From the NCBI GenBank assembly GCA_028284955.1, contig JANQQS010000157.1, positions 1 to 60,737 on the forward strand: a stretch of 60,737 nucleotides of DNA, given 5' to 3'. Each line of letters opens with the position of its first letter. The stretch's first letter is position 1. Position numbers and translations under genes: made by a program. The DNA is from Myxococcota bacterium (lineage in GTDB: Bacteria; Myxococcota_A; Polyangia; Polyangiales; Houyiibacteriaceae). Under the pieces are notes generated by a model that searched no databases, was not told the origin of the DNA, and saw nothing but the letters and a program-made list of their open reading frames with translations. Below are positions 41,332 through 47,487 of the stretch, piece after piece.

Positions 41332-41416
41332 TGTAGACCTCTGCGCTATGTAGACCTCCGCGCTGTGTAAACCTCTGCGCTGTGTAGATCACTGAGCTAT
41401 GTAGATCCCTGCGCAA
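41332..41416 (-). repeat. 5 x 17-bp tandem repeat spanning a stop codon
   Basis: Units of TGTAGACCTCTGCGCTA (plus strand) fill the gap between the activator and the leftward GAF gene. The unit at its right end encodes the last residues of the GAF protein, and the TAG stop (41397-41399) lies at the junction of two units. Unit length is 17, so the frame shifts between copies. Confidence 0.88.
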
Positions 41417-41927
41417 TGGCGCGCTCGATGGCCACCGCAGTGCAACCCATGGCCGACAAGGCAGCGAGCTCGAAATCTCTCGGCGCGTAGTCGCACACGC
41501 TGGCGATTCCCAACACTTCTTGTCGCGGCCGAACTGGTACGCCGATGAGCGAACGAACGTTTTGCTCGTTCATCCATTTGCGTACCGACGCATCGACTGG
41601 TTCAGAAGCCTCCGTCACGTCACGAACCCGAACCGGTGTTGATGCATTCGAATCCGCGACAGAATCCAACAGCGGATCGCTCCACGCCACGCGGACGCTC
41701 GAGGCTCCCGCGCCCCGCACCGCGACGCGCACCCGCACCACAAGCGCCCCGGCTGAACGCAGAGAAAGCTCCGCCAGTGGCATGCGCGTAGCTCGAGCCG
41801 CTTGGGTCAGGTGACCGACGAGCTGATTGTGGATTCCGATCTGGATCGGCGACGCGACAGACACATAGCTGGTTTGTGCAAAACCGATGCCGTCGAAAAA
41901 TGCCTGAGTTTTCGCCAATGCCCACAA
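41397..41927 (-). CDS. GAF-like domain protein
   Basis: A 176-residue soluble protein whose second half fits a GAF domain end (NEQNVRSLIGVPVRPRQEVLGIASVCDYAPRDF, seen as consecutive short motifs, then ALSAMGCTAVAIERAI). The first half contains a variable Val/Arg-rich beta region. Ligand unknown. The start is uncertain: TTG at 41927 is the first available in frame. It sits beside the FHA activator, in the opposite direction, with a repeat array at its 3' end. Confidence 0.6.
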   Translation of the reverse strand: MWALAKTQAFFDGIGFAQTSYVSVASPIQIGIHNQLVGHLTQAARATRMPLAELSLRSAGALVVRVRVAVRGAGASSVRVAWSDPLLDSVADSNASTPVRVRDVTEASEPVDASVRKWMNEQNVRSLIGVPVRPRQEVLGIASVCDYAPRDFELAALSAMGCTAVAIERAIAQGST

Positions 41928-42053: not shown

Positions 42054-42995
42054 ATGCGATGCCAAGCCGTGTATGATCGGCGTAACAAGAGAGCAAATCG
42101 AGACCTTTGGATGCCCAAGCAATGGTTCGTGTTGATATCGGTGGTCGCGCTGGTTTCGGCCTCCGAAGGTTCACTAAACACTTCTCAGGTTCGCGCGCAG
42201 GCCGAACGAGAGGTGACCCAAACGGAAGCGGCCCCAACCGAAACGGCCCCAACCGAAACGGCGCAGCCTGCCAAACCCTCGCCCGTCAAAAAAGAAACTG
42301 AGTCATCAGCTGACGAAGAGGCGCGCGCGCTCAGTCAAGCTGGGCTGACCGCGTATCGGTCGGGACGGTACGAGAGCGCCCTAACCTACTTCGAACAGAG
42401 CTACGCGCTTTCCCAACGAGCCGCGCTTCTCTTCAACATTGGCTCTTGCGCAGAACGGCTTCGGCGCGACCAACGCGCAATCGAGGCTTACGAAGCGTAT
42501 CTTCGTGCTCGACCCAACGCAGACAATAGAGAAGCCGTCGAGGCTCGCATCGAAATTCTCCGCCATCATGTGGCCAATCGCCAAGCAAAGAACGACGTCG
42601 CGCCAGTGACTTCTCCGCCACCTCCTCCGACGCCCAGTTCTACAGGCGACGACGCGAATCCATCATCGCGCAGAAAAACGACCGGGTTCGCATTGCTGGG
42701 TGTCGCCGGAGGCGCGTTGGCGCTTGCCGCCAGCGCGATCCCGTGGTGGCTGGACCGGCGAGACGCGACAGAGATGTGCGGTCTTCCAGACCGCGTGTGC
42801 GACAACCAAAACAAACTGGAAACGCGTCGCAACGCAGCGCTCGGCACCTGGATCGGCGGCAGTGCAATTGCGGTCGGCAGTGCCGTCGCCGGCCTATTTC
42901 TGTTGCTGCGCAAGAACAAAAAGCACACCGCGACAGAAGCGCGTTGGCGGTGCGCTCCAGGCGCGCTTTCTCTATCTTGCCAGGGGCTGCTGTGA
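42054..42995 (+). CDS. exported TPR protein with C-terminal membrane helices
   Basis: A 313-residue protein. The ATG at 42054 has GGAG seven bases upstream; the ATG at 42111 is an alternative that shortens the charged n-region before the hydrophobic signal (FVLISVVALVSA). A low-complexity PTETA repeat follows, then two TPR-like helical pairs (GLTAYRSGRYESALTYFEQSY and LLFNIGSCAERLRRDQRAIEAYEAYL regions, about 105-185), a Pro-rich linker and two hydrophobic helices (GFALLGVAGGALALAASAI; GTWIGGSAIAVGSAVAGLFL). The layout is typical of myxobacterial envelope proteins. The stop overlaps the next gene's GTG. Confidence 0.75.
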   Translation: MRCQAVYDRRNKRANRDLWMPKQWFVLISVVALVSASEGSLNTSQVRAQAEREVTQTEAAPTETAPTETAQPAKPSPVKKETESSADEEARALSQAGLTAYRSGRYESALTYFEQSYALSQRAALLFNIGSCAERLRRDQRAIEAYEAYLRARPNADNREAVEARIEILRHHVANRQAKNDVAPVTSPPPPPTPSSTGDDANPSSRRKTTGFALLGVAGGALALAASAIPWWLDRRDATEMCGLPDRVCDNQNKLETRRNAALGTWIGGSAIAVGSAVAGLFLLLRKNKKHTATEARWRCAPGALSLSCQGLL

Positions 42996-44587: not shown

Positions 44588-46003
44588 TCAGGGCTGAGGC
44601 AACACATGATAGCGAACTACTTTGTGTTCAGGAGCAGGCAACCACTCGGTGGCTTCAACCACGAACGGCACGTCGGGAAAGCGCTCGCGAAGCGCGGCGT
44701 GAATATCCATCTTGAGAGCCTGCTCGTTGCCCGAAGCGTGCTTGGGTTCAAACCGCAAACGGAGCTCATCACCCGCTGCAATCACTTGATGCGCCTTGAT
44801 CGGAAATGCGGCGATCGCCTGTGACACCGCGGATGGGCTGAGTTCCATGCCGCGCACGGAAAACGACTGTGCCTCCTTTCCGCGCAGATCAAAAATGGAA
44901 ATACCTTCGTAGCCGCAGGGGCACTTTGCGCGCCGAAGTGTGGCCCAGTCGCCCGTGCGGTACTTGAGAAGGGGCGTCGCCCAGTTGACGAGATTCGTCA
45001 GGACGAGCTCTCCCGAGCCTTCTTCTTTGAGAGCTCCCTCTTCCCCGAGAACCGCAGCGCTGGGGACATCGTCGCGGCCGTCGGGAATCACATGAAGTTG
45101 CACAAACATCGACGAGAGATGCAGTCCACGATGATGATCGCACTCTCGCGCGATGACCCCACCTTCAGTGGATGCATAGGTATTGTAGATCGGGCAAGCA
45201 AAGGCTTGCTCGATCGTCAGTCGCTGGTCGGGATGGAGACATTCCGCCGACGACATGATCGCTTTTGGACGAATGCGTCTACCGCTGAGCTGCGCGTCAA
45301 GTTCGGCAAGCCTCAAGAAACAGCTTGGCTTGCTCGCGATAAGCGCCGGCTGCGTTTCGCGGAGCTCTTCTACCAGCGCGAAATCTCGAGTTTCGCCGCG
45401 CGCAAGCTGCCGGGTTCGTGAAAACGCAAGCCCGAGGTTGGGAAGAATGTACGTCGTGTCGGCTCGCGTGGGGTAGTTCATAATGTTGACGATGGCCGCT
45501 TCCCCCGATCGTATCGCGCGACGCAAGGAGAACGCCGACGAACACAACGACTCGTAGGCGTAGGGGCCACAGTCGAACCACGCTGGAAGATCGTACCTGA
45601 GACGCGCTTTGGTACCCAGTGTCCCGCTGGTTTCTCGTTCGAAAATCTCTGAGGAAAGGGTTTGTTCGCTCAGGAACCGATGGAAATCACCAACGACAGT
45701 GGTCTTGTCAATGAGCGGCAGCGCCTGCCACATCTGCTCTGCGTCTTTGCCGCGATGTTCCCGAAGTGCGCTTCGGTAGAACGGAACATGGGTTCGGACG
45801 TGATTCAGTGTGGCTCCTAAAAGCGATCCGCGGTCAACCAAACGTCGCCGCTCTCGCCATTCTTTTTGCGCCGCCAGCGCACGCCGTAAGTTGCCCACGA
45901 GCTCAGCTCGCGGCACCGATTCCTGCTCCGCGCGCGCTATCAGTTGGTCGAACACGTTTGCCGCTCTTTTCGCGATCGAGAAGCAGGGCGGCGGGCCGGT
46001 CAT
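44588..46003 (-). CDS. CapK/PaaK-like adenylate-forming enzyme
   Basis: A 471-residue member of the phenylacetate-CoA-ligase/CapK branch of AMP-binding enzymes. Visible motifs are the HVPFYRSAL N-terminal signature, the phosphate loop ETSGTLGTKA near 125, YASTEGG near 275, and TGDWATL with the AMP-ribose Asp near 365. Members activate carboxylates as acyl-AMP and load CoA, an acceptor protein or a peptide. No CoA-pathway gene is near. Thirty bases upstream is a 49-codon gene for a double-glycine leader peptide, which may be its substrate. It converges on the propeller lipoprotein gene with a six-base gap. Confidence 0.82.
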   Translation of the reverse strand: MTGPPPCFSIAKRAANVFDQLIARAEQESVPRAELVGNLRRALAAQKEWRERRRLVDRGSLLGATLNHVRTHVPFYRSALREHRGKDAEQMWQALPLIDKTTVVGDFHRFLSEQTLSSEIFERETSGTLGTKARLRYDLPAWFDCGPYAYESLCSSAFSLRRAIRSGEAAIVNIMNYPTRADTTYILPNLGLAFSRTRQLARGETRDFALVEELRETQPALIASKPSCFLRLAELDAQLSGRRIRPKAIMSSAECLHPDQRLTIEQAFACPIYNTYASTEGGVIARECDHHRGLHLSSMFVQLHVIPDGRDDVPSAAVLGEEGALKEEGSGELVLTNLVNWATPLLKYRTGDWATLRRAKCPCGYEGISIFDLRGKEAQSFSVRGMELSPSAVSQAIAAFPIKAHQVIAAGDELRLRFEPKHASGNEQALKMDIHAALRERFPDVPFVVEATEWLPAPEHKVVRYHVLPQP

Positions 46004-46032
46004 AGCTCGTCGCGGCCCGCCACCACCCGCCG

Positions 46033-46182
46033 CTAGAGTGGGGCTCCCATCTGGGACTGTCCACCGGTCACTTTGGCGGCTTCCTCACGGGTAAGCTTGC
46101 CCTCGAATGCAGCCAGCAGGCTCTCTGCTTTTTGGAGCTCGTTCTGTTCTTTCTTGGTATTTTTCTTCGTTCGACCAAACAT
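46033..46182 (-). CDS. 49-residue double-glycine leader peptide (putative RiPP precursor)
   Basis: An unannotated small gene. AGGAGG lies four bases before the ATG, among the strongest Shine-Dalgarno sites in the window. The peptide starts MFGRTKKNTKKEQ, has an amphipathic helix (LQKAESLLAAFEG), then KLTREEAAKVTGG, which matches the double-glycine leader pattern recognised by peptidase-containing exporters. The putative core after GG is only QSQMGAPL. It lies 30 bases upstream of the CapK/PaaK-like gene on the same strand. Leader type and linkage are seen; modification and export are inferred. No transporter or protease gene is in the window. Confidence 0.7.
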   Translation of the reverse strand: MFGRTKKNTKKEQNELQKAESLLAAFEGKLTREEAAKVTGGQSQMGAPL

Positions 46183-46343
46183 GATTCCTCCTGTTTTTCA
46201 TCGCGCCTGCCAACCGACAAAGCCTGCCGACACGCACCTCTGGACGCTAGTCAAAAGCAAGGCTCCGGGTCCAATGCACAACGTGCATGACACCATACCC
46301 ATCTGCGTCCCTCTGCTTCGATGACACCGCACTATCGGACCCG

Positions 46344-46388
46344 CATCGACCAAAACCGGATCGACCAAAACCGGGTCGACCAAAGGAC
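46344..46388 (-). repeat. 3-4 x 15-bp tandem repeat next to a stop codon
   Basis: Units CATCGACCAAAACCG, GATCGACCAAAACCG and GGTCGACCAAAG lead into CGACTAAAATCGCGG, which holds the TAG stop of the leftward LysR gene. The units look like copies of the gene's final codons. Confidence 0.85.
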
Positions 46389-46395
46389 GTGCCGA

Positions 46396-47391
46396 CTAAA
46401 ATCGCGGAGGTCGATCGCGGTCAGAATGGTCCTCGATCCACGCGAGCAGCTCGTCGAGAACCGTCGCAGGGGCAGCGGACAGGGTATCTCGGCCTAGGTG
46501 AATCACGCACGCGTGGCGCTCTAAATCCAAATCGCGAAGCGCATAGACCGCTGCGTTCCAATCTAAGTTGTTCGACGCCACCTCGGGGATGAGCGAAATC
46601 GCTTCTCCCCGCTCCACCATGTTTCGAATGGTGCCGAAGTTTTCGGTGGTCACCACGACATTGGGCTGCGCGTCGTGACGCGCCATCGCACGGGCAAGCG
46701 CCGGAATCGCATTGGGCGCGTCGAACGTGGCGATGGGTCGACCGATGAGATCCTGCACGCTGACCGACCCGTCTATCGCACCAGAAAACGAAGTACTGGC
46801 TGATGCGACTACGAAATAGGTCTCCGACCAAATCTTCTTGAATGTCAGCTCGGGAGACGCGGGTCTGGTGGTCATCATCGCGATATCCAAATGGCCGCGC
46901 AGCACGTCCCGCTCGAGCTGGGGCGAAAGGTTTTCGTCTAGGCTCACCTGAATCTCGGGAAACGACTTTCGAAACCAACGCAAAAACGCAGGAATCAGAT
47001 AGGCGCAGGTCGTGGCCGATCCGCCCATGCGAACGGTTCCGCGAGGCGCGAGCGCGGATTGCTTGAGCCCGTTCATGGCGTGTTCCGCGGCCGACACCAC
47101 CCGACGCGCACCACTCACGAACGATTTACCCGCTTCGCTCATGCGCAGCGCTTGCCCTTCACGGACGAAAAGCTTCGCCCCAACCCGCTCCTCGAGTTGG
47201 GCAAGTCGACGGCTCAACGCAGGCTGGGAAATCCCCAGCTGCCGTGCCGCCCGGGTCACGTGGCCCGATTCCGCAAAGGTCAAAAAAGCCTGAAGGGATT
47301 CAATGCTCGGAAACCGCACCGCGACAGAAGTAGCACGATCCTCTCGGCGCGCGACAGTGCGACCATTGGATGTTTCCCGAGACAACCTCAT
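46396..47391 (-). CDS. LysR-family transcriptional regulator
   Basis: A 331-residue regulator with an N-terminal helix-turn-helix (FAESGHVTRAARQLGISQ, then PALSRRLAQLEERV, about 38-80) and an effector domain of the LysR family. The ATG at 47391 is within a 20-bp repeat array and follows AGGAAAC; an in-frame GTG at 47319 would begin at the HTH. It is divergent from nei. Its target is unknown; the repeat array is a candidate binding region. Confidence 0.88.
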   Translation of the reverse strand: MRLSRETSNGRTVARREDRATSVAVRFPSIESLQAFLTFAESGHVTRAARQLGISQPALSRRLAQLEERVGAKLFVREGQALRMSEAGKSFVSGARRVVSAAEHAMNGLKQSALAPRGTVRMGGSATTCAYLIPAFLRWFRKSFPEIQVSLDENLSPQLERDVLRGHLDIAMMTTRPASPELTFKKIWSETYFVVASASTSFSGAIDGSVSVQDLIGRPIATFDAPNAIPALARAMARHDAQPNVVVTTENFGTIRNMVERGEAISLIPEVASNNLDWNAAVYALRDLDLERHACVIHLGRDTLSAAPATVLDELLAWIEDHSDRDRPPRF

Positions 47392-47487
47392 GTTTCCTGA
47401 GACAACGTGACGTTTCCCGAGGAAACGTCATGTTTTCCGAGGCAACCTTATGTTTCCCAAGACGACCCTTATGTTTCCCGAGACGAC
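47370..47487. repeat. 6 x 20-bp array between LysR and nei
   Basis: Six units of about 20 bp, consensus ATGTTTCCCGAGACAACCTT on the plus strand. The third to fourth unit forms a perfect inverted repeat, TGACGTTTCC-cga-GGAAACGTCA. A spacing of 20-21 bp puts each unit two helical turns apart, as in an operator array. It covers the LysR start and lies upstream of nei. Confidence 0.85.

Follow-up and report, generated by a model that had tools for sequence, protein, structure and literature searches.

Eleven cassettes of a double-glycine peptide and a PaaK-type ligase dispersed in one Myxococcota genome

Eleven dispersed cassettes, each pairing a double-glycine peptide gene with a gene for a PaaK-type ligase, are present in a single genome (6.07 Mb on 223 contigs; estimated completeness 96.6%), and the family they form is real. 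One of them lies in the window, i.e., the whole stretch of 60,737 nt that was analysed. The best explanation that we can offer, to which we give an even chance of being correct, is that each double-glycine precursor is modified by a PaaK-type ligase dedicated to it and is then exported via an exporter shared by all eleven.

The peptide-ligase family

In the window the cassette is read from the (-) strand. An ATG-initiated gene at 46033..46182 encodes a 49-aa precursor (MFGRTKKNTKKEQNELQKAESLLAAFEGKLTREEAAKVTGGQSQMGAPL), whose 41-aa leader (46060-46182) is of the textbook double-glycine type (LTREEAAKVTGG) and ends in KLTREEAAKVTGG, leaving an eight-residue core, QSQMGAPL (46036-46059). The ribosome-binding site AGGAGG (46187..46192) stands 4 nt ahead of the ATG. 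This motif is common in the window (26 sites versus ~21 expected) and thus by itself proves little; purine-rich ribosome sites were found ahead of 11/11 peptide genes of the family. A gap of 29 bp separates the peptide stop from the ligase ORF downstream (44588..46003, (-) strand), and this spacer together with the ligase start (45974..46032, (-) strand) is predicted to fold into a hairpin that covers the start codon of the ligase (about -32 kcal/mol over 59 nt), which was not significant against shuffled sequences (z = -1.3 for 90 nt). A conserved hairpin between peptide and ligase was rejected as a family feature because its strength is uneven among copies (z of -4.7 and -4.3 in some versus -0.2 to -1.4 in others). 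Short tandem arrays with periods of 15-21 also occur in or near intergenic stretches of the window (41332-41418, 42217-42262, 46341-46384 and 47370-47487).

When the window ligase was used as a query against its own genome, many paralogues of about 29-35% identity were recovered, which score far better than anything in 145 relatives, and a profile search brought the ligase total to 12. Directly upstream of 11 of the 12, on the same strand and 0-170 bp away, lies a double-glycine peptide of 49-68 aa. The first ten peptides were recognised as short same-strand ORFs upstream of ligases that end in a double-glycine motif and a short tail; a profile of these ten, searched against the whole genome, returned the same ten plus an eleventh (E 9e-9, contig C26), located 41 bp before a ligase that had been missing from the first ligase search list. 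No other strong peptide match was found in this whole-genome search (next best E 0.8), and every confident peptide in the genome has a ligase. Such repetition, with 11 homologous peptides upstream of 11/12 paralogous ligases, is more than chance. The twelfth ligase, on contig C198, is without a peptide, adjoins another peptide-ligase pair and has an amino-acid permease beside it. An RpiR-type regulator (L033:7540-8643) lies between that divergent pair and the peptide-less ligase; its leader-like tail, AEKTLAHIEAQLRTAGG, was considered as a candidate leader and rejected (5.5 bits versus up to 10.7 for shuffles). Tandem GAACGATGTCGCT-like repeats were seen between the peptide and ligase of the C211 pair (L038, between 9975 and 10146).

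Pairwise codon-position identity over the last 21 leader codons was 0.46, 0.54 and 0.34 at positions 1, 2 and 3 respectively; the third position is thus the least conserved, indicating a translated frame under selection. The GC content of the fetched contigs is uniform (58-61%), and a binning artefact is therefore unlikely. The search for a shared promoter sequence in the 11 upstream regions gave only a single match, 17 bases long, in C165 and C188. Distances among ligases and among leaders showed no significant correlation (r 0.20, P 0.13), and co-divergence of ligases with cores was not shown (r -0.06). Thus partner-specific recognition is not demonstrated, and one-to-one specificity is suggested by the gene arrangement only.

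These results bear directly on the first-pass annotation, which had proposed a 49-codon gene with a double-glycine leader next to a CapK/PaaK-like enzyme. The gene is confirmed, with its ribosome site; the leader assignment is supported by the leader consensus (below) and the family of 11 paralogues, and the pairing by its recurrence at 11/12 paralogous ligases. Selection on the frame, which the annotation had named as a check, found support in the codon-position pattern. Its other test, conservation of the pair among relatives, gave a mixed outcome: no database relative has the pair, while within this genome the pair is conserved at 11 divergent paralogous loci.

The searches behind the first half of that outcome were broad. 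Neither 184 genomes of the order nor 379 sampled from the phylum gave a convincing match to the peptide profile; weak matches in relatives (best E 7e-5, in G008) were discarded, as they fall inside longer unrelated frames. When the ligase profile was run once over contigs from 84,980 species, it returned 80 loci of 23-40% identity. Upstream of 152 outside ligases (the 80 loci plus the ligases of relatives) there was no double-glycine ORF, and no confident match to the leader profile was found at the outside ligase loci. This genome seems to be the sole representative of its genus, and the peptide-ligase system may therefore be lineage-specific or merely under-sampled.

Leaders, the exporter and the ligases

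Among the 11 leaders, position -12 is Leu or Met and position -8 is Glu or Asp without exception; position -7 is hydrophobic in 9/11 and position -4 in 10/11, while position -1 is always Gly and position -2 is Gly in ten and Ala in one (AG). These positions match the recognition consensus of C39 peptidases, i.e., Leu(-12), Glu(-8), Leu(-7) and Val/Leu/Ile(-4) (PMC6363468). The genome encodes one C39 peptidase, as part of a 768-aa ABC exporter on contig C97 which adjoins HlyD and an outer-membrane efflux protein (OEP, TolC-type). Its C39 sequence has the Gln, the DCGPSC cysteine, the NHYVVV histidine and the ADPG aspartate expected of an active domain, and no double-glycine peptide lies beside it. 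It had been said of the window that no exporter was inside and that a trans-acting one might serve; the window indeed holds no C39 exporter, and the second point agrees with the genome, where the sole C39 peptidase lies on another contig, which together with the leader consensus points to export in trans. The eleven peptides are thus probably exported in trans by the shared C97 exporter, with cleavage and secretion inferred from sequence. The exporter is tied to the peptides by two things only: the leader consensus and the absence of any other C39 protein from a genome whose estimated completeness is 96.6%. C39 exporters with HlyD, 46% identical, occur in another family of the order (L200 in G043:C9 and L201 in G048:C211); these were rejected as sister systems, as no peptide is adjacent and no convincing one was found elsewhere in those two genomes.

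The window ligase is a PaaK/CapK-type adenylate-forming enzyme of 471 aa, as judged from alignments, NCBIfam profiles, a structural model and the nearest structures, with Y276, E280, YRTGD (348-352) and Lys461 invariant. Alignment found E280, YRTGD and K461 in 12/12 ligases, i.e., the adenylation motifs and the catalytic C-terminal lysine are kept, although adenylation itself was not observed; the glycine-rich P-loop region is variable among the ligases and degenerate in several copies. The best curated NCBIfam profiles for all 12 are DVU_1553, FlxY, PaaK and BagE/FevW ligases. For the window copy the score is far short of the curated cut-offs (105 versus 300 bits), and its Pfam AMP-binding score is also below cut-off. 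Its model (pLDDT 86.5) has its best PDB matches in the PaaK family (E 1e-23), the closest structures being BT_0428, PaaK1, AjiA1, ClxA and NatL2, and sequence search likewise gave PaaK-type ligases as the nearest solved structures. A tree that also included 40 near outsiders put all 12 ligases in a single clade of their own (SH-aLRT 97), with a long stem. A RiPP recognition element (PqqD-like) had no Pfam match in the two ligases scanned; such elements are frequent in modifying enzymes but not universal.

Several features vary among the copies. CPCG-like Cys motifs of PaaK relatives are kept in four (C72 and three of C198) and lost in seven of eleven aligned ligases (alignment A1, comprising window 44588-46003, L033 and L035-L041). 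A (GRPNT)n repeat-like insert lies inside the C112 ligase, the two insert-bearing ligases listed being L041:8170-9756 and L039:8543-10153. The C165 ligase has an acidic DADAEPD run at its N-terminus, possibly a start-site artefact.

What the ligases may do to the peptides

Adenylate-driven modification of the peptide before export is the most likely role of the ligase, though the chemistry is inferred. In this explanation: i) the ligase would spend ATP in the cytoplasm to form an acyl-adenylate, and from it an ester or amide on the precursor; ii) the preferred chemistry would be activation of the core's own C-terminal carboxylate, followed by attack by an amine, an alcohol or an internal nucleophile; iii) the shared ABC exporter (C39 peptidase, HlyD and TolC-type channel) would cut after GG and secrete the short modified core. 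What is secreted would be small peptides, most of them anionic, and closer in character to signals or conjugates than to pore-forming bacteriocins. Neither the modification nor the export has been observed. A PaaK-type relative, NatL2, forms an ester via an acyl-adenylate without CoA (PMC7204872).

The choice of carboxylate rests on the cores, which are 8-20 aa long and differ among copies: QSQMGAPL, LSNAGLSPISGTTA, EAMPARIDEISG, DGLAEVVELQAVEGPSPIGA, ATAINMMDDLK, AAVLTDSDMPNG, EGTLQKCDLLAVDA, MSQPAAGDGA, VAYGHETQPGLTDA, RHVHAAASQEDM and QSETNTGDTHA. The last core residue is Ala or Gly in 8/11, whereas these two residues make up 23% of internal core positions (P 6e-4) and 9% of the C-termini of 138 longer ORFs (a crude background). 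This pattern, noticed post hoc, hints at the C-terminal carboxylate as the target of the ligase and mildly favours C-terminal activation over loading of a carboxylate. C-terminal activation is also favoured because the C-terminal carboxylate is the only reactive group common to the eleven leader-bearing cores, in addition to the unusually uniform residue that carries it. On this basis we put forward, as a tentative possibility only, a new class of ribosomal product in which one ANL-fold (PaaK-type) ligase per precursor adenylates the C-terminal carboxylate and thereby caps or cyclises the peptide, with eleven cassettes served by a single unlinked exporter.

The genes beside the cassettes bear on the main rival, which we consider rather unlikely: that the substrate of the ligase is a small carboxylic acid, aryl or otherwise and perhaps the one sensed by a LysR regulator, which is activated and transferred to a Ser, Thr or Lys or to the N-terminus of the precursor, the acylated peptide then being exported. 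LysR genes immediately adjoin 6/11 pairs (window, C146, C108, C165, C188 and C211); that of the window is directly upstream of the peptide gene (46396..47391, (-) strand). With 31 LysR genes among an estimated 5,200 or so genes in the genome, chance would give only about 0.13 such neighbours, and the excess is thus large. Among the six, five are paralogous to one another (29-41% identity), the window LysR being more distant. The C211 LysR, directly upstream of its pair, is fused behind a HAD-type (S6PP-like) domain (L038:10643-12733). Sodium:solute symporters lie beside three of the 11 pairs, C146 (L035:11348-13045), C166 (L037:3151-4713) and C211 (L038:6829-8445). Both kinds of neighbour would fit a small-molecule substrate, PaaK relatives act on aryl acids, and none of the cores lacks a Ser or Thr that could receive an acyl group. 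However, the 11 cores have no conserved nucleophile at any fixed position, their Ser/Thr count is near that predicted from core composition, and the core has no free N-terminus before leader cleavage.

The same neighbours can be read in another manner. LysR, a CoA ligase and a symporter together are a common catabolic arrangement, and the peptide may be an unmodified secreted signal, with the ligase working separately in carboxylate metabolism as a CoA ligase of the same regulon, its activity being reported or coordinated by the signal. Short anionic cores without a conserved modification site would suit such a role, as would the lack of significant co-variation between ligase and leader distances. 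On the other hand, one peptide per ligase at 11/12 loci and none elsewhere exceeds usual regulon membership, the ligases are a private clade, and no recurring catabolic partner gene was found beside them in the neighbourhoods examined; we therefore regard the signal with an independent CoA ligase as improbable.

Still less credible are ordinary small bacteriocins of the class II microcin type, with the adjacent enzymes in accessory or immunity functions. Such peptides would come, as here, with classic double-glycine leaders and a type I exporter of the C39 kind, and single peptides are weakly similar to lantibiotic and bacteriocin family profiles. However, the cores are unlike known bacteriocins not only in length but also in being neutral to anionic (net charge 0 to -4), with one Cys in all and almost no aromatic residues, and the neighbourhoods examined showed no small membrane protein of immunity type that recurs next to the pairs. 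Chance ORFs with a GG motif beside a polysaccharide-type CapK gene are already refuted: chance could produce one 49-codon ORF behind so frequent a motif as AGGAGG, but not eleven homologous copies, each beside a ligase and with codon-position bias, nor would a motif search of all short ORFs in the ten stretches holding pairs then have returned the 11 peptides and only one other ORF.

Comparison with known systems

A RiPP-like arrangement, in which a leader-core precursor is linked to a candidate modifying enzyme, occurs at 11/12 loci, with the modification itself inferred. To our knowledge, ANL/PaaK-type ligases are not recognised as RiPP partners, and a search of the literature for a PaaK/CapK-RiPP pair returned nothing relevant. 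Since RiPP discovery depends on known partner enzymes, genome miners would miss such pairs. The eleven natural precursor-ligase pairs in one genome are a ready set for specificity tests and, if the ligase does activate carboxylates of ribosomal peptides, it would be useful for capping or cyclising peptides.

The C39-exported double-glycine peptides (AMS/PCAT systems; substrates of LahT and ComA) are similar in leader consensus with Val/Ile/Met(-4), Gly-Gly, short variable cores and a C39 exporter with HlyD and TolC-type partners, whereas here the exporter is encoded far from every precursor and each precursor has its own PaaK-type ligase. Prochlorosin-type systems resemble the family in having several divergent precursors with a common leader type and apparently one exporter. 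Their precursors share one promiscuous lanthipeptide synthetase, in contrast to the dedicated ligase per precursor and the near absence of Cys from the cores here. Prochlorococcus MIT9313 encodes 30 double-glycine RiPP substrates (PMC6363468).

Among enzymes, the ThiF-like RiPP enzymes (MccB, PaaA, GrcB and IndF) activate a ribosomal peptide by adenylation of one of its carboxylates, in many cases the C-terminal one, which is then attacked by a nucleophile (PMC12150305). The proposed logic of carboxylate adenylation is the same; the fold is ThiF/E1 there and PaaK-type ANL here, where Pfam found no ThiF domain in the window ligase. The DVU_1553/FlxY/CapK-like ligases, as the best curated profile matches for all 12, differ in gene neighbourhood, and the window copy falls far below their cut-offs. 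NatL2, ClxA and AjiA1, PaaK-type enzymes which join molecules without CoA, are the nearest solved structures by both sequence and fold, with the adenylation motifs kept; NatL2 and ClxA, however, act on small aromatic acids, and we know of none of the three that acts with a ribosomal peptide. The kind of product, a double-glycine exported peptide and probable RiPP, is already known, while the PaaK-type partner is new as far as the literature was searched; together they look like an undescribed route to secreted modified peptides.
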